Part shown: in pieces, positions 26,046 through 61,370 of the stretch
How the letters are laid out: each line of letters opens with the position of its first letter
How positions within the stretch are numbered: the first letter of the stretch is position 1
NCBI GenBank assembly: GCA_024762925.1
Contig: JANTGM010000002.1
Span: forward strand, 62,001 to 126,000
Length of the DNA stretch: 64,000 nt
Source: Kofleriaceae bacterium
GTDB lineage: Bacteria > Myxococcota_A > Polyangia > Haliangiales > Haliangiaceae
Reading direction: 5' to 3'
Translations under genes and position numbers: made by a program
The notes under the pieces: model-generated
Told to the model about the DNA's origin: nothing
Database searches by the model: none
The model's input: only the letters and a program-made list of their open reading frames with translations

Positions 26046-26163
26046 TGAATTGCCCCGCAAGATTCGCTCAACTGCCCGAGAAAACTACACTAACCCAAGG
26101 TGCGCCCAGAGCAAAGCGTTTGACCGACGGACCCGTGAAGAGTAGGGTGCGCCCGCTGTGAAG

Positions 26164-27993
26164 ATGCATCTGATAGGGATTGGGGGGACGGGCATGGGGG
26201 CCCTTGCAGGGCTATTGCAGGCCTCGGGGCATCAGGTGCGCGGCTCAGATGGTCCGATCTATCCGCCCATGAGCGACCAGCTCTTGGCTCTGGGGATCGA
26301 CGTCGCCGAGGGCTATGCGCCGGAAAATCTCGACTGGCAACCCGACTTGGTTGTGGTTGGAAACACCTGCAAAAAGGACAATCCTGAAGTTGCCGCAGCC
26401 GAGGAACGCGAGTTCAAACTCACCTCGCTGCCAGAGGTCTTAGGAGAGCGTCTCCTGGCTGATCGGGAGCCTATCGTGATCGCGGGAACGCACGGAAAGA
26501 CAACCACATCTTCCCTCATGGCACACATCCTCATCACCGCCAATCGAGATCCTGGCGTCTTCGTTGGTGGTGTGCCGCAGAATCTCGGCCAGGGATGGCG
26601 TCTGGGGCAGGGCACTGAGTTTGTCTTGGAGGGCGATGAGTACGACTCGGCATTCTTTGACAAGACGTCAAAGTTTCTGCACTACAAGCCAAAGTACGCG
26701 GTGCTCACTTCTGTCGAGCTCGACCACGTAGACATCTTCTCTTCGATGGAAGAGGTCAGAGCAACATTCCGGAAGTTCGTCGCGCTCTTGCCACCAGATG
26801 GCTTCCTCATGGTCGCGGACTCTTCGCCTGACGCGATTGCGATTGCGAGCGAGTGTCCTGCAACCGTTGAGCGTTACGCTGTGACCCATAGCAAGGTCGA
26901 TAGCGAGGTGCCTTGGACAGCAAAGCTCGAGAGCATGCTTCCATCGGGTCGCTGTCGCTTTGATGTCTTCCGTTACGGCGAGATCTACCACCGCTTCGAG
27001 ATGCTTTTGAGCGGGCGCCACAACCTTGAAAACGCTCTCGCTTGTATCGGAATTGCCGATCACATCGGGGTCTCCAAGGCGGACATCGTGTCCGCGCTTG
27101 CGAGTTTTTCTGGTGTTGCGAGACGACAGACGTTCCGAGGAATCGCTCAAGGCGTCACAATAATTGAGGACTATGGGCATCACCCTTCGGCCATTGCTCT
27201 CACGCTTGAAGGTTTGCAACGGCGCTTCTCGGGTAGGCGCCTCGTTGCCGTGTATGAGCCGAGAACTGCGACGTCTCGACGCAAGACCTTTCAGCAGGAA
27301 TTTGCCGCGGCTTTTGCAAACGCCGACGAGTTGGTCGTTGGCGGGCTCTACGCTCCTGACAACATTGCGCAGGAGGAACGTTTTGATCCTGAACGATTGG
27401 CGCTCGATGTCCATCAGGACGGCACGCCAGCAACATGCATTCAGGACGTCGACGGCATCGTTCGCCATGTAACAGCCTCGGTACGACCCGGAGATGTGGT
27501 TGTGGTCTTTAGCACCGGCGCCTTTGAGGACATCATCGACAAGCTTCTCACTGCGCTGGGCGACGCGATGGTGCCCGCTGGGCGACATCACTTGGCTCCA
27601 ATTGTTGCGCTCCTAGACGAACTTTCGTTGGATAGCCACGATCTCAACGAAGAGAAAATGTCTGAGTTCTTGGCACTGGAGAACGAGAACGGCCTTATGG
27701 GCTGTGTTGGCTTAGAAGTATTCGGAGAGGACGCAGTCCTGCGATCGCTCGCAGTGGCGCCTGCAGGGCGAGGAATCGGCTACGGTTGGATGCTTGCCGA
27801 CACCATCATCAACTTGGCGCGATTTCGTGGAGTGAAGCGTCTCTATCTCGTTACCGCGGCGGCTAGTGATTTCTTTGCTGCAAAGCATGGCTTCCGAATC
27901 GTCGATCTCTCCACGGCACCTGCTGCCGTCACAGAATCAACGACCTTTTCGCGGCGAAGTGAATCGCTTGTTCCTATGCGTCTTGATCTATGA
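26164..27993 (+). CDS. mpl: Mpl murein-peptide ligase fused to a GNAT acetyltransferase
   Basis: 609 residues from ATG 26164 (GTG 26158 is possible). Residues 1-468 are the Mur-ligase-type Mpl, which joins recycled L-Ala-gamma-D-Glu-mDAP tripeptide to UDP-MurNAc. They show IGIGGTGMG at the N-terminus, the ATP loop GTHGKTTT (108-115), EGDEYDSAFFD, DHVDIF and the C-domain EPRTATSRR. Mpl enzymes normally stop near residue 460. Here residues 475-609 form a GNAT-type acetyltransferase with VLRSLAVAP, RGIGYGWML (acetyl-CoA loop) and LVTAAASDFFAAKHGF, closest by eye to ArsN2-like GNATs. Its stop overlaps the next ATG (ATGA). Confidence 0.88.
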   Translation: MHLIGIGGTGMGALAGLLQASGHQVRGSDGPIYPPMSDQLLALGIDVAEGYAPENLDWQPDLVVVGNTCKKDNPEVAAAEEREFKLTSLPEVLGERLLADREPIVIAGTHGKTTTSSLMAHILITANRDPGVFVGGVPQNLGQGWRLGQGTEFVLEGDEYDSAFFDKTSKFLHYKPKYAVLTSVELDHVDIFSSMEEVRATFRKFVALLPPDGFLMVADSSPDAIAIASECPATVERYAVTHSKVDSEVPWTAKLESMLPSGRCRFDVFRYGEIYHRFEMLLSGRHNLENALACIGIADHIGVSKADIVSALASFSGVARRQTFRGIAQGVTIIEDYGHHPSAIALTLEGLQRRFSGRRLVAVYEPRTATSRRKTFQQEFAAAFANADELVVGGLYAPDNIAQEERFDPERLALDVHQDGTPATCIQDVDGIVRHVTASVRPGDVVVVFSTGAFEDIIDKLLTALGDAMVPAGRHHLAPIVALLDELSLDSHDLNEEKMSEFLALENENGLMGCVGLEVFGEDAVLRSLAVAPAGRGIGYGWMLADTIINLARFRGVKRLYLVTAAASDFFAAKHGFRIVDLSTAPAAVTESTTFSRRSESLVPMRLDL

Positions 27994-28814
27994 GCGCGGC
28001 AACGGCGGAGCATCTAGAGTTTCTTCGCATTGCGAAGGCTGTTGGCCGGGAGGCTTCGGACCTGCTGCGCAACGCGCAATCCGAGATCGGAGAAATTCGT
28101 ACGAAGAGTACTGAACGCGATCTCGTAACGGAATGGGACACGCGTAGCGAAGAGCTCATTCTCTCGAGTCTTGCAAAGCTCGCTCCTGGCATTGCTGTCC
28201 TGGCAGAAGAAAGCGGTGGCCACGGCGACACCAACTCGGACCGCTGCTGGGTTATCGATCCAATCGATGGAACTGTGAACTTTGCGCATGGTGTTCCCCT
28301 CTTTGGCGTTTGCATCTCCCTGGAAGAAAAGGGCCAACCCGTTGCTGGCATCGTGAGCGCCCCCGCTCTTGGTTGGACGTTTAGTGCGTGTCTTGGTGGC
28401 GGGGCTCACATGGAAATGGCGGGTACCGAACATCTGCTTCGCGTGAGCAAGACCGCAGAACTCGGCAAGTCGATGTTGGCTTCGGGGTTTCCCTACGATC
28501 GCGCTGTTACACACCACAACTTTGCCCAGTGGCAGCACTTTCTGACACGGGCAGGCGCTTGCAGGCGCTTTGGTGCTGCCTCACTCGACCTCTGCATGGT
28601 TGCTCGTGGATGGCTCGACGGCTATTGGGAGACCCGTCTCTCTCCGTGGGATCTCTCAGCCGGCGCGCTAATCGTTCGCGAAGCAGGTGGTTGCGTGACG
28701 GGCATCACCGGAGAGGCCTTCTCCTCACGATCTGGTCACGCCATTGCCTCAAATGGTGTTATTCATAAGGAGATTCTCGCCGAGCTGGCCATCGTTGGGA
28801 CTCCCAAGCTATGA
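27990..28814 (+). CDS. Inositol monophosphatase family protein (SuhB-like)
   Basis: 274 residues with the complete metal site of the family: EES at the first glutamate, DPIDGTVNFAHG, and WDLSAGALIVREAGG near the C-terminus. It hydrolyses a phosphate monoester such as inositol-1-phosphate or a sugar or nucleotide phosphate (CysQ-type activity cannot be excluded). It is cytosolic, with no signal peptide. The start overlaps the mpl stop and the stop overlaps the next gene, both as ATGA, so the three genes are translationally coupled. Within this operon a role in cell-wall sugar or nucleotide recycling would fit but is inference. Confidence 0.88.
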   Translation: MSAATAEHLEFLRIAKAVGREASDLLRNAQSEIGEIRTKSTERDLVTEWDTRSEELILSSLAKLAPGIAVLAEESGGHGDTNSDRCWVIDPIDGTVNFAHGVPLFGVCISLEEKGQPVAGIVSAPALGWTFSACLGGGAHMEMAGTEHLLRVSKTAELGKSMLASGFPYDRAVTHHNFAQWQHFLTRAGACRRFGAASLDLCMVARGWLDGYWETRLSPWDLSAGALIVREAGGCVTGITGEAFSSRSGHAIASNGVIHKEILAELAIVGTPKL

Positions 28815-30070
28815 AACTCGCTATCGCCTCAATCGCATTCGCCGTTGTTCTCGCAACGCAATTAGCCTCAGCCTCTGCTCAACAGACGGGGGCAGCCAAG
28901 CGCGTTGACATAGAAGCCGTGCAGGGCGTACTCGCAGTTCGAAGTTTGGATGGGTGGTTGCTCACCGATTCCAAGGGCAAGAACTCAATCGCAGTCGAGT
29001 TGGTGGTGCCCGAGGCTCCCACGTCGAGGCAGTGGTTCTACTTTATTCCCTCGTTTGGCCAGCCGAGCATCTTGGTGCACAAGAGCGAGGCGTCAGCATT
29101 CGAGACGGTTCCAGGAACGAAAATCGAGTACAGCGGATATCGTGATCTCAAGTCCGGTCTAAGAACTCTTCTTGGCAGCGCAAAAAACATCGCCATGGAG
29201 TACGCGCCCGAGTCTGGCATTGCGAGTCTCACGCGAGTGGATTCCGCGACGGCTGCCTTGGTTCGCAAAGGTGGGGTGACGATTTCTTCGTCCGCTGACC
29301 TCGTGCAACTCACAAAATCGCTTTGGGGACCAGATGGACGCGTTGCGCACTACGTGGCAGTTCATCACCTAACCAAGCTGCGCGATGAGGCGCTAACCTT
29401 TGTGGCCGAGAGAGTTGCGAACGATCGCCCTGTGAGTGAGCACGACGTTAGGGCGTTTCTCCAAAACAGCTATCGAGCTCGAGGAATCCGTGGAACCGTT
29501 TCTGTTGCGGTTGGTGGCAATACCTCAAAGCCAAACTATGTGCCGAGTGTCCGCTCTTCTCGCGCCATCAAAGAAGGAAGCCTCCTGGTTCTTCGTCTTA
29601 CTGGTGCTGTGATTGATAGCGACCGCCCAATTTATGCGAGCCTCAGCTGGGTAGCATACGTAGGAGAGACCGTTCCCGAGCGCTTTCAACGTGTCTTCAA
29701 GGTGGCCTCTAGTGCGCGTGATACAACCATTGCTTTCATCCGAAGCCGTGCGAGCAAGCGTCGATTGCTTAAAGGGTTCGAGGCTGACCAACAGGCAAGA
29801 CAAGCGGTTGGCAAGGCGGGCTTGGCGTCGCGCTTTCTACACCGCACGGGACACTCCTTGGACACAAGCCTCTTGGGCGATGGCGCAAATCTCGACGACT
29901 TTGAAAGTCACGACACCCGCAATCTCGTCGTTGGCTCTGGGTTCACTGTTGGTCCTGGCATCTACATGCCTGGCGACTTTGGACTTCAAACCACGGTCGA
30001 TGTACATATGGTGCAGGGCGGGGTTGAGGTCACCACGCCCGTACAGACTCGAATCACGCCGATCTTGTAA
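28811..30070 (+). CDS. Exported M24 (Xaa-Pro aminopeptidase-like) pseudo-peptidase
   Basis: 419 residues with a cleavable signal peptide (cleavage near residue 23, ASA-QQ). From about 180 the sequence follows the M24 pita-bread fold closely, ending with HRTGHSL, LDDFESHDTRNL and PGIYMPGDFG. In active relatives the ligands sit in LIDLW, YADITWV, TGH, FSIEPGIY and VRSEIDV. Here those positions are R262, S277, H348 (kept), G381 and T395. The two substrate-pocket histidines are N237 and N242. Metal binding should be lost, so it is probably a periplasmic peptide-binding or structural protein. Translation is coupled to the phosphatase gene (ATGA). Confidence 0.75.
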   Translation: MKLAIASIAFAVVLATQLASASAQQTGAAKRVDIEAVQGVLAVRSLDGWLLTDSKGKNSIAVELVVPEAPTSRQWFYFIPSFGQPSILVHKSEASAFETVPGTKIEYSGYRDLKSGLRTLLGSAKNIAMEYAPESGIASLTRVDSATAALVRKGGVTISSSADLVQLTKSLWGPDGRVAHYVAVHHLTKLRDEALTFVAERVANDRPVSEHDVRAFLQNSYRARGIRGTVSVAVGGNTSKPNYVPSVRSSRAIKEGSLLVLRLTGAVIDSDRPIYASLSWVAYVGETVPERFQRVFKVASSARDTTIAFIRSRASKRRLLKGFEADQQARQAVGKAGLASRFLHRTGHSLDTSLLGDGANLDDFESHDTRNLVVGSGFTVGPGIYMPGDFGLQTTVDVHMVQGGVEVTTPVQTRITPIL

Positions 30071-60925: not shown

Positions 60926-61360
60926 ATGGCACGAACGGTGCTCTGTACGATTGGCATGAGTCCGAGACACAGACGCATGGTTCGTGTGGGCTGCTCTGGG
61001 GTATTTTCCTCGGTTGTCGACGTTGTGATGCTGTTGGTGTTGGTGGAGGCCCTTGGGGTTTTCTTGGCTCTCGCCGCCTTCCTAGCAGCAACAACCGGTG
61101 CAGTCGCCAGCTTTCTTGTGAACAAGTTCTGGGCGTTTCGCGACCATCGACCGCTGCACCTTGCACAAGTGTCGGGGTTTGCGGTGGTGGCACTTGGATC
61201 CGCACTCGGAACAGCCGCTTGCGTGCAGGTGCTTAGCGCGGGGCTTGGAGTGCCCTATCTCCTCGCCAAAGCTCTCGGAGCAGTAGCCCTCTTTCTGTGC
61301 TGGAGCTATCCAGTTCAGTCGCGACTCGTTTTTAGAACGGCTCACGCGACTCGTTTTTAG
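60926..61360 (+). CDS. gtrA: GtrA family membrane protein
   Basis: 144 residues with four membrane helices; the start may instead be ATG 60956 or 60977. The GtrA pattern is [43 protein letters not shown] and [18 protein letters not shown]. GtrA-like proteins are thought to flip lipid-linked sugars or to be their membrane partner. A glycosyltransferase gene follows 36 bases later, the usual pair. A 25-bp tandem duplication covers its stop codon and has changed the last residues to ATRF. Confidence 0.82.
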
Positions 61361-61370
61361 AACGGCTCAT
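61321..61370. repeat. 25-bp tandem duplication across the gtrA stop codon
   Basis: 61321-61345 and 61346-61370 are the same 25 bases apart from the last base. As 25 is not a multiple of three, the second copy is read in another frame and supplies the present stop at 61358-61360. Without it the frame would have ended ...RTAHS. Confidence 0.95.

Follow-up and report, generated by a model that had tools for sequence, protein, structure and literature searches.

In-frame fusion of an Mpl-type murein-peptide ligase with a GNAT acetyltransferase in a branch of the myxobacteria

Introduction

Mpl, the murein-peptide ligase, carries a specific motif, (S/T)AFFDK-x-SK, and in the enzyme of Psychrobacter arcticus two residues, Asn406 and Asn484, have been proposed for the peptide site (PMC3060825). 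Among the acetyltransferases of the GNAT fold, ArsN2 is the clade of ars operons that lies nearest to glutamate N-acetyltransferases (PMC6465285), and ArgA of Mycobacterium tuberculosis has been solved with acetyl-CoA and glutamate (PDB 5yge). In PMC2922099, Mur-ligase or GNAT genes are separate and stand in other operons. Here we describe a gene in which an Mpl-type ligase is followed, in the same frame, by a complete GNAT domain, found in a stretch of 64,000 nucleotides (hereafter the window) of a Kofleriaceae bacterium (GenBank assembly GCA_024762925.1, contig JANTGM010000002.1, positions 62,001 to 126,000 of the forward strand). A search of open-licence PMC papers, the scope of our literature search, found no description of an Mpl-GNAT protein.

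Results

The gene and its parts lie as follows, in positions of the window.

26164..27993, + strand: whole gene, Mpl-type ligase with in-frame GNAT acetyltransferase, 609 amino acids (open reading frame, Pfam, NCBIfam)
26164..27561, + strand: Mpl-type ligase half, residues 1-466, three Mur-ligase domains (Pfam; PDB Mpl 3hn7 at 7.4e-81; model matches to 3eag and 3hn7)
26485..26508, + strand: ATP-binding loop GTHGKTTT, residues 108-115 (invariant in a 54-row alignment)
27559..27564, + strand: junction G466-D467, between the last Mpl helix and the first GNAT strand (conservation; secondary structure of the model)
27565..27990, + strand: GNAT tail, residues 468-609, resembling ArsN2 and N-acetylglutamate synthase (Pfam, NCBIfam, PDB profile matches, model)
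27769..27786, + strand: acetyl-CoA pyrophosphate loop RGIGYG, residues 536-541 (conservation across fused rows)

A sequence-only reading of this DNA had claimed a complete GNAT fold joined in frame to a normal Mpl end, with an RGIGYG acetyl-CoA loop and a likeness to ArsN2, and all of this was borne out. From the ATG at 26164 (with GTG at 26158 as an alternative start) the reading frame runs for 609 codons, uninterrupted, and closes with the stop at 27993. Pfam places Mur-ligase domains at residues 2-95, 106-298 and 320-451 and the GNAT domain PF00583 at residues 497-577, and the separate search of the tail that the same reading had suggested recovered PF00583 at an E-value of 1.4e-10. With the whole protein as query, NCBIfam ranked mpl first (360.8 bits, cutoff 388.7) and murC second (316.2 bits), and ArsN2, the top family of the tail, matched residues 478-596 with 92.7 bits against a cutoff of 125. 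Positions 26164-27993 are thus confirmed as one intact gene, an Mpl-type ligase followed nearly at once by a complete GNAT.

The survey of tailed Mpl proteins for which the sequence-only reading had called was run at several levels (G, L and f numbers are our handles for genomes, loci and family codes). Among 36 related genomes, 29 have the fusion at near full length, three (G033, G034 and G035) have an unfused Mpl whose match stops at about residue 466, and four (G011, G015, G020 and G030) have no intact orthologue. Across 116 genomes of the class, 103 gave a match at 1e-75. The fused genomes among them, counted by hand from the rows, number 64: 59 near full length, three cut at the N-terminus (G343, G344 and G309), G316, with the fusion in two pieces of one frame, and G366, in which the ligase piece lies in the same frame as the ArsN2 match. 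In the 39 unfused genomes the matches end at residues 452-491. Fused genomes belong to 12 family codes (f1, f2, f3, f5, f6, f7, f9, f10, f62, f63, f66 and f67) and unfused ones to f11 to f15, f17, f61, f64 and f65; no family in the class sample has both forms. Of 282 genomes of the phylum, 247 with a match, at least 12 are fused, and the other matches listed all end by residue 500. These results dispose of the two objections that the earlier reading had raised against itself: a sequencing error or frame join of two genes is rejected because orthologues in many genomes keep the same single frame, and a normal Mpl extension is contradicted by where the 39 unfused proteins end.

When 84,980 species genomes were scanned with the tail motif RGxG[LY]GW[MIV]L[AG], which fusions to other GNATs would escape, 54 loci were returned, and all 54 are single-frame Mpl fusions (L060 is cut by a contig end, and the alignment of L083 begins at residue 14); conservation of the loop in these loci is selected for by the motif itself. 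By name they are mostly Myxococcota, namely Kofleriaceae, Nannocystis, Enhygromyxa, Plesiocystis and unclassified metagenome-assembled genomes of Myxococcales or Deltaproteobacteria, and two loci labelled merely 'proteobacterium' (L078) and 'bacterium' (L080) nest within the Nannocystaceae-type clade of the tree described below. For the whole fused branch we use the name Nannocystineae; one locus, L040, is so labelled. In viral contigs the pattern matched 23 times, with no relative among the matches. An apparent triple fusion of Mpl, GNAT and phosphatase at L106:1-2703 was rejected as a probable frameshift between two overlapping genes, since in the DNA a second frame continues to the normal tail end and stop, overlapping the start of a phosphatase; its genome, G031, is the sole member of its family in the sample and is counted among the 64 fused class genomes.

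A tree was built from the ligase half alone, using 101 distinct rows from 135 loci with matches that start by residue 20 and end at residue 440 or later. On this tree the 64 fused rows require a single change, which suggests, with modest support (78), that the fusion arose once; the unfused L126 (G035) joins the fused group at its base, through an open fork. The ratio of nonsynonymous to synonymous substitution rates (dN/dS) was computed for 15 close pairs picked by the author, with medians taken by hand. It ranged from 0.06 to 0.60 in the tail (median about 0.19; 14 pairs computable, one saturated) and from 0.13 to 0.33 in the ligase half (15 pairs, median about 0.18). The tail is under purifying selection in the pairs tested.

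In the ligase half, all 12 positions checked are invariant in the 64 fused rows, among them D29, K112, T113, E156, E159, Y160 and H188, to which roles in binding ATP, Mg and UDP were transferred by hand mapping from P. arcticus Mpl (PMC3060825), and the Mpl-specific motif is present as SAFFDKTSK at residues 162-170. We infer the ligase role from the family, these conserved catalytic residues and the fold. The window's genome codes elsewhere (G000:C35) for a second homologue with 32% identity, putatively MurC. The places of the proposed peptide-site residues Asn406 and Asn484 are held by A369 and T451. Many unfused relatives differ at residue 369 as well. At residue 451 all 64 fused rows have S, C or T and 31/37 unfused rows have Asn; a peptide-site change tied to the fusion was nonetheless dropped as an explanation, as Ser451 is already present in the unfused L124 and L126, the latter being the unfused row nearest to the fused group.

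The tail has both an acetyl-CoA loop of the form (R/Q)xxGx(G/A) and, by prediction, a GNAT fold. R536, G539 and G541 occur in 64/64 fused rows and G537 in 63/64; in the 25 rows found without the motif (20 by whole-protein search, five by the ArsN2 profile) the first three are again present in every row and G537 in 24. A tryptophan directly follows the loop in 61/64 rows. The best PDB profile matches of the tail were M. tuberculosis ArgA (5yge, 4.3e-13) and the N-acetylglutamate synthase of Neisseria gonorrhoeae (2r8v, 3.4e-10). A model of the tail (mean predicted local distance difference test, pLDDT, 90.4; predicted template modelling score, pTM, 0.84) had 2r8v as its best structural match (Z 19.4, root mean square deviation 2.4, 143 residues aligned), followed by 3d2p (Z 18.3) and 5yge (Z 18.0, deviation 2.5, 138 aligned). 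The pocket is less constant. Residue 518 is Glu in 33/64 fused rows and Q, D, R, L or others in the rest, and residue 527 is commonly Arg, as in both ArsN2 and M. tuberculosis ArgA. The acetyl-CoA site is thus the constant part of the tail and the acceptor site varies.

Searched alone, the tail scored 97 bits with ArsN2 (NF040501), below the cutoff of 125, and 44.6 bits with the next-best NCBIfam family. One tail, that of L093 (G027, family f5), passes the cutoff at 128.3 bits, and the whole protein of L068, with the same tail letters, reaches 124.8. In an alignment that included six plasmid ArsN2 proteins and four GNATs of the class from outside Mpl, every aligned tail has an extra residue before the GF motif. 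By eye, each of the six plasmid ArsN2 proteins has a C-terminal CPaSA or CPxSA motif, which the window tail and most other tails lack; L068 and L093 read CCAGA at that place.

As separate observations on ArsN2-like domains, two genomes of the window's family have one fused behind a low-molecular-weight phosphatase domain of the ArsC type (L094:955-1908 and L095:895-1917), and a Deinococcus plasmid has ArsN2 fused to DUF6428 (L146:1372-2382), genes for which also lie near arsN2 in L147 and L149.

The two halves meet abruptly. In the model of the full protein (pLDDT 92.2, pTM 0.91; confidence is lower at residues 561-570, with a mean pLDDT of 73) two residues separate the last ligase helix, which runs to residue 465, from the first GNAT strand, which begins at 468, and, with L106 left out, G466 is found in 63/63 fused rows and D467 in 60/63. 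The two-residue linker and the high pTM of the model suggest close coupling of the tail to the ligase; a freely floating tail would not be expected at such a pTM.

Two neighbouring genes follow the fusion in the window.

27990..28814, + strand: inositol-monophosphatase-family gene (start codon overlapping the fusion gene's stop)
28811..30070, + strand: M24-type peptidase-like gene (Pfam; downstream in many Kofleriaceae-type loci)

The order of fusion gene, phosphatase and M24 gene is kept in many Kofleriaceae-type loci, and the M24-family protein has, by eye, an apparent signal peptide. In flanks of uneven length, a phosphatase-family gene lies downstream in 34/64 fused and 5/37 unfused rows, and in 0/24 Nannocystaceae-type rows. 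It was rejected as a clue to the tail because it also follows unfused Mpl (L124, L125, L126, L134 and L136). The Nannocystaceae neighbours were uninformative (10 proteins at five loci): MnmG or NADH-dehydrogenase parts at L069, L083 and L089, and proteins without a Pfam match at L074 and L088. As to recycling genes, the window's genome has an S66 peptidase of the LdcA type and an AmpG-family protein, which scores 434 bits against a cutoff of 350. The window also contains an exact tandem duplication of a 25-base unit at 61320-61369.

Discussion

We propose that the N-terminal half acts as an Mpl-type ligase that would join recovered wall peptide to UDP-N-acetylmuramic acid (UDP-MurNAc) with ATP, and that the C-terminal half, an acetyl-CoA-binding GNAT from the group of ArsN2 and N-acetylglutamate synthase, sits close against the ligase and would acetylate a small substrate of the same step, an amino acid or a peptide, at its free amino group. 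We hold at somewhat less than an even chance the tentative proposal that the tail works in close coupling with the ligase and uses acetyl-CoA to N-acetylate an amine of wall recycling; catalysis, acceptor and coupling alike are inferred. An N-acetyltransferase is favoured because the nearest solved relatives (2r8v and 5yge) acetylate alpha-amino groups. The most likely acceptor would be the free D-centre amine of diaminopimelate, as the free D-centre in the tripeptide resembles an amino-acid head, or else the N-terminal amine of a peptide not meant for reuse; the diaminopimelate amine is a guess, and probably not the right one. It is likewise doubtful, though worth stating, that Nannocystineae-type myxobacteria N-acetylate the recycled wall peptide at this amine during reloading, which would cap or protect peptidoglycan stems by an undescribed route. 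Wall-peptide acetylation as such, which the sequence-only reading had suggested, is a possible role.

Several observations weigh against this proposal. The window protein falls 28 bits short of the cutoff of the mpl model TIGR01081, although mpl is still its top model; the cutoff is passed by four of ten relatives, two of four unfused (L022 and L023) and two of six fused (L011 and L068), and the fused L006 lies narrowly over the murC cutoff (336.6 vs 335.1 bits). The peptide of the ligase is therefore not certain, and this half is better called Mpl-type than a certified Mpl. The recycling context is uneven: Amidase_2 (AmpD-type) had no match in the window's genome, and in eight further fused genomes AmpG was over its cutoff in one, weak in five and absent in two. 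The fold does not fix the substrate, since the uncharacterised GNATs 3d8p (Z 17.3) and 2q7b (Z 17.2) score within 1 of 5yge and the ranking after 2r8v is tight. Residue 525, which aligns with the general base Glu353 of the N. gonorrhoeae synthase (numbering offset of 20, by hand), is never Glu in the 64 fused rows (L 25, I 15, V 11, F 10, Y 3). Finally, residue 527 is Arg in 36 rows, Phe in 24, which are exactly the Nannocystaceae-type clade of the tree, and His in four, so that a single acceptor for the whole clade seems doubtful.

Other roles for the tail must be weighed against the same evidence. It may bind acetyl-CoA without mainly catalysing, and use the short junction to tune the ligase to the state of acetyl-CoA or carbon. 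Such a sensor would suit a protein that holds its acetyl-CoA loop while residues 518 and 527 drift, and whose very short junction keeps G466 throughout, but R527 is retained in more than half of the rows, beyond the needs of a pure sensor, and the allostery of related synthases is of a different kind, by arginine on a kinase-like domain (PMC4490483). We consider a sensor rather unlikely. We know of no Mpl regulated by acetyl-CoA. Detoxification, in which the tail would acetylate a toxic amino-acid or peptide antibiotic reaching the recycling enzyme (of the arsinothricin or phosphinothricin type, or a wall-peptide mimic), draws on ArsN2 being the top family by a wide score difference, on L093 and L068 scoring above or almost at the ArsN2 cutoff, on the arsenic-related genes that adjoin all six plasmid arsN2 genes examined, and on the acetylation of arsinothricin by ArsN1, the other ars-operon family (PMC6465285). 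A fixed fusion inherited vertically over 12 families would nevertheless be unusual for a resistance gene, most tails have lost the ArsN2 end motif, and the fused genomes G007 and G009 have a separate ArsN2-like gene; among the seven window neighbours scanned with Pfam, to which the scan was limited, there is no ars gene. Detoxification is thus an improbable role, and the arsenical chemistry at which the sequence-only reading had hinted is, as a specific claim, not supported for a tail that lies below the ArsN2 cutoff, without CPxSA and without an ars gene among those neighbours.

The top fold match would make the tail an N-acetylglutamate synthase serving arginine synthesis, and the fusion of a short synthase domain to another enzyme has a precedent in ArgH(A) of marine gammaproteobacteria (PMC1382215). 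This role is nonetheless extremely unlikely in view of the ArgJ match (at 1e-10) in 27/29 fused relatives and of G025, a genome of the same order (1.6 Mb, rated 98% complete) that keeps Mpl-GNAT and has no match to ArgB, ArgJ or AmpG, with ArgB found in 14/14 control genomes; moreover, the general-base Glu is absent from all 64 rows, and a figure legend credits Haliangium with a synthase of its own. N-acetylation of an amino sugar, a muramic acid or glucosamine derivative, to restore MurNAc for the ligase would accord with glucosamine-phosphate acetyltransferases among the weak profile matches (1i12, E 0.0038) and with the frequent sugar-phosphatase-family neighbour; since amino-acid acetyltransferases match far better (4.3e-13) and the phosphatase also adjoins unfused Mpl, we regard it as very unlikely. 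The tail might also serve only structure or solubility, its acetyl-CoA site being a relic, and of the two halves it does evolve faster (median pair identity 0.41, vs 0.55 in the ligase half; 1953 pairs of 63 rows, L106 left out), but the near-invariant loop and the purifying selection in the tested pairs speak against a relic, which we think quite unlikely.

A fusion inherited through a whole myxobacterial branch would tie acetyl-CoA chemistry or sensing to wall recycling there, and gives a hint of an unknown step in that process, be it acetylation or control. Wall-peptide acetylation, if true, would be a new modification step of peptidoglycan; acetyl-CoA sensing, if true, would link carbon state to wall reuse. 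Myxobacteria of this branch prey on other bacteria.

Compared with known Mpl (Escherichia coli; P. arcticus, 3hn7), the protein shares the domains, the ATP loop, the SAFFDKxSK, HHP and EPR motifs and, by prediction here, the fold, and it differs in the added C-terminal GNAT, in scoring under the NCBI equivalog cutoff and in having A369 and T451 at the two Asn positions. With ArsN2 the tail shares the top NCBIfam match, the LRS motif (in part of the clade), the FF..GF motif and the acetyl-CoA loop; unlike ArsN2, it is fused to Mpl, usually has the tryptophan after the loop and the extra residue before GF, has mostly lost CPxSA and, in the window, remains under the cutoff. With N-acetylglutamate synthase, or short ArgA (2r8v, 5yge), it shares the predicted fold and the loop, but it lacks the general-base Glu and is kept in G025, where neither ArgB nor ArgJ has a match. 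In form the nearest precedent is ArgH(A), an argininosuccinate lyase with a short synthase domain, in which an ArgA-like GNAT is likewise added at the C-terminus of an unrelated enzyme, and which complements argA (PMC1382215); the tail described here has a wall-recycling-type ligase of another lineage as its host. The parts of the protein are known families, and what is new is their architecture and its fixation in a clade.
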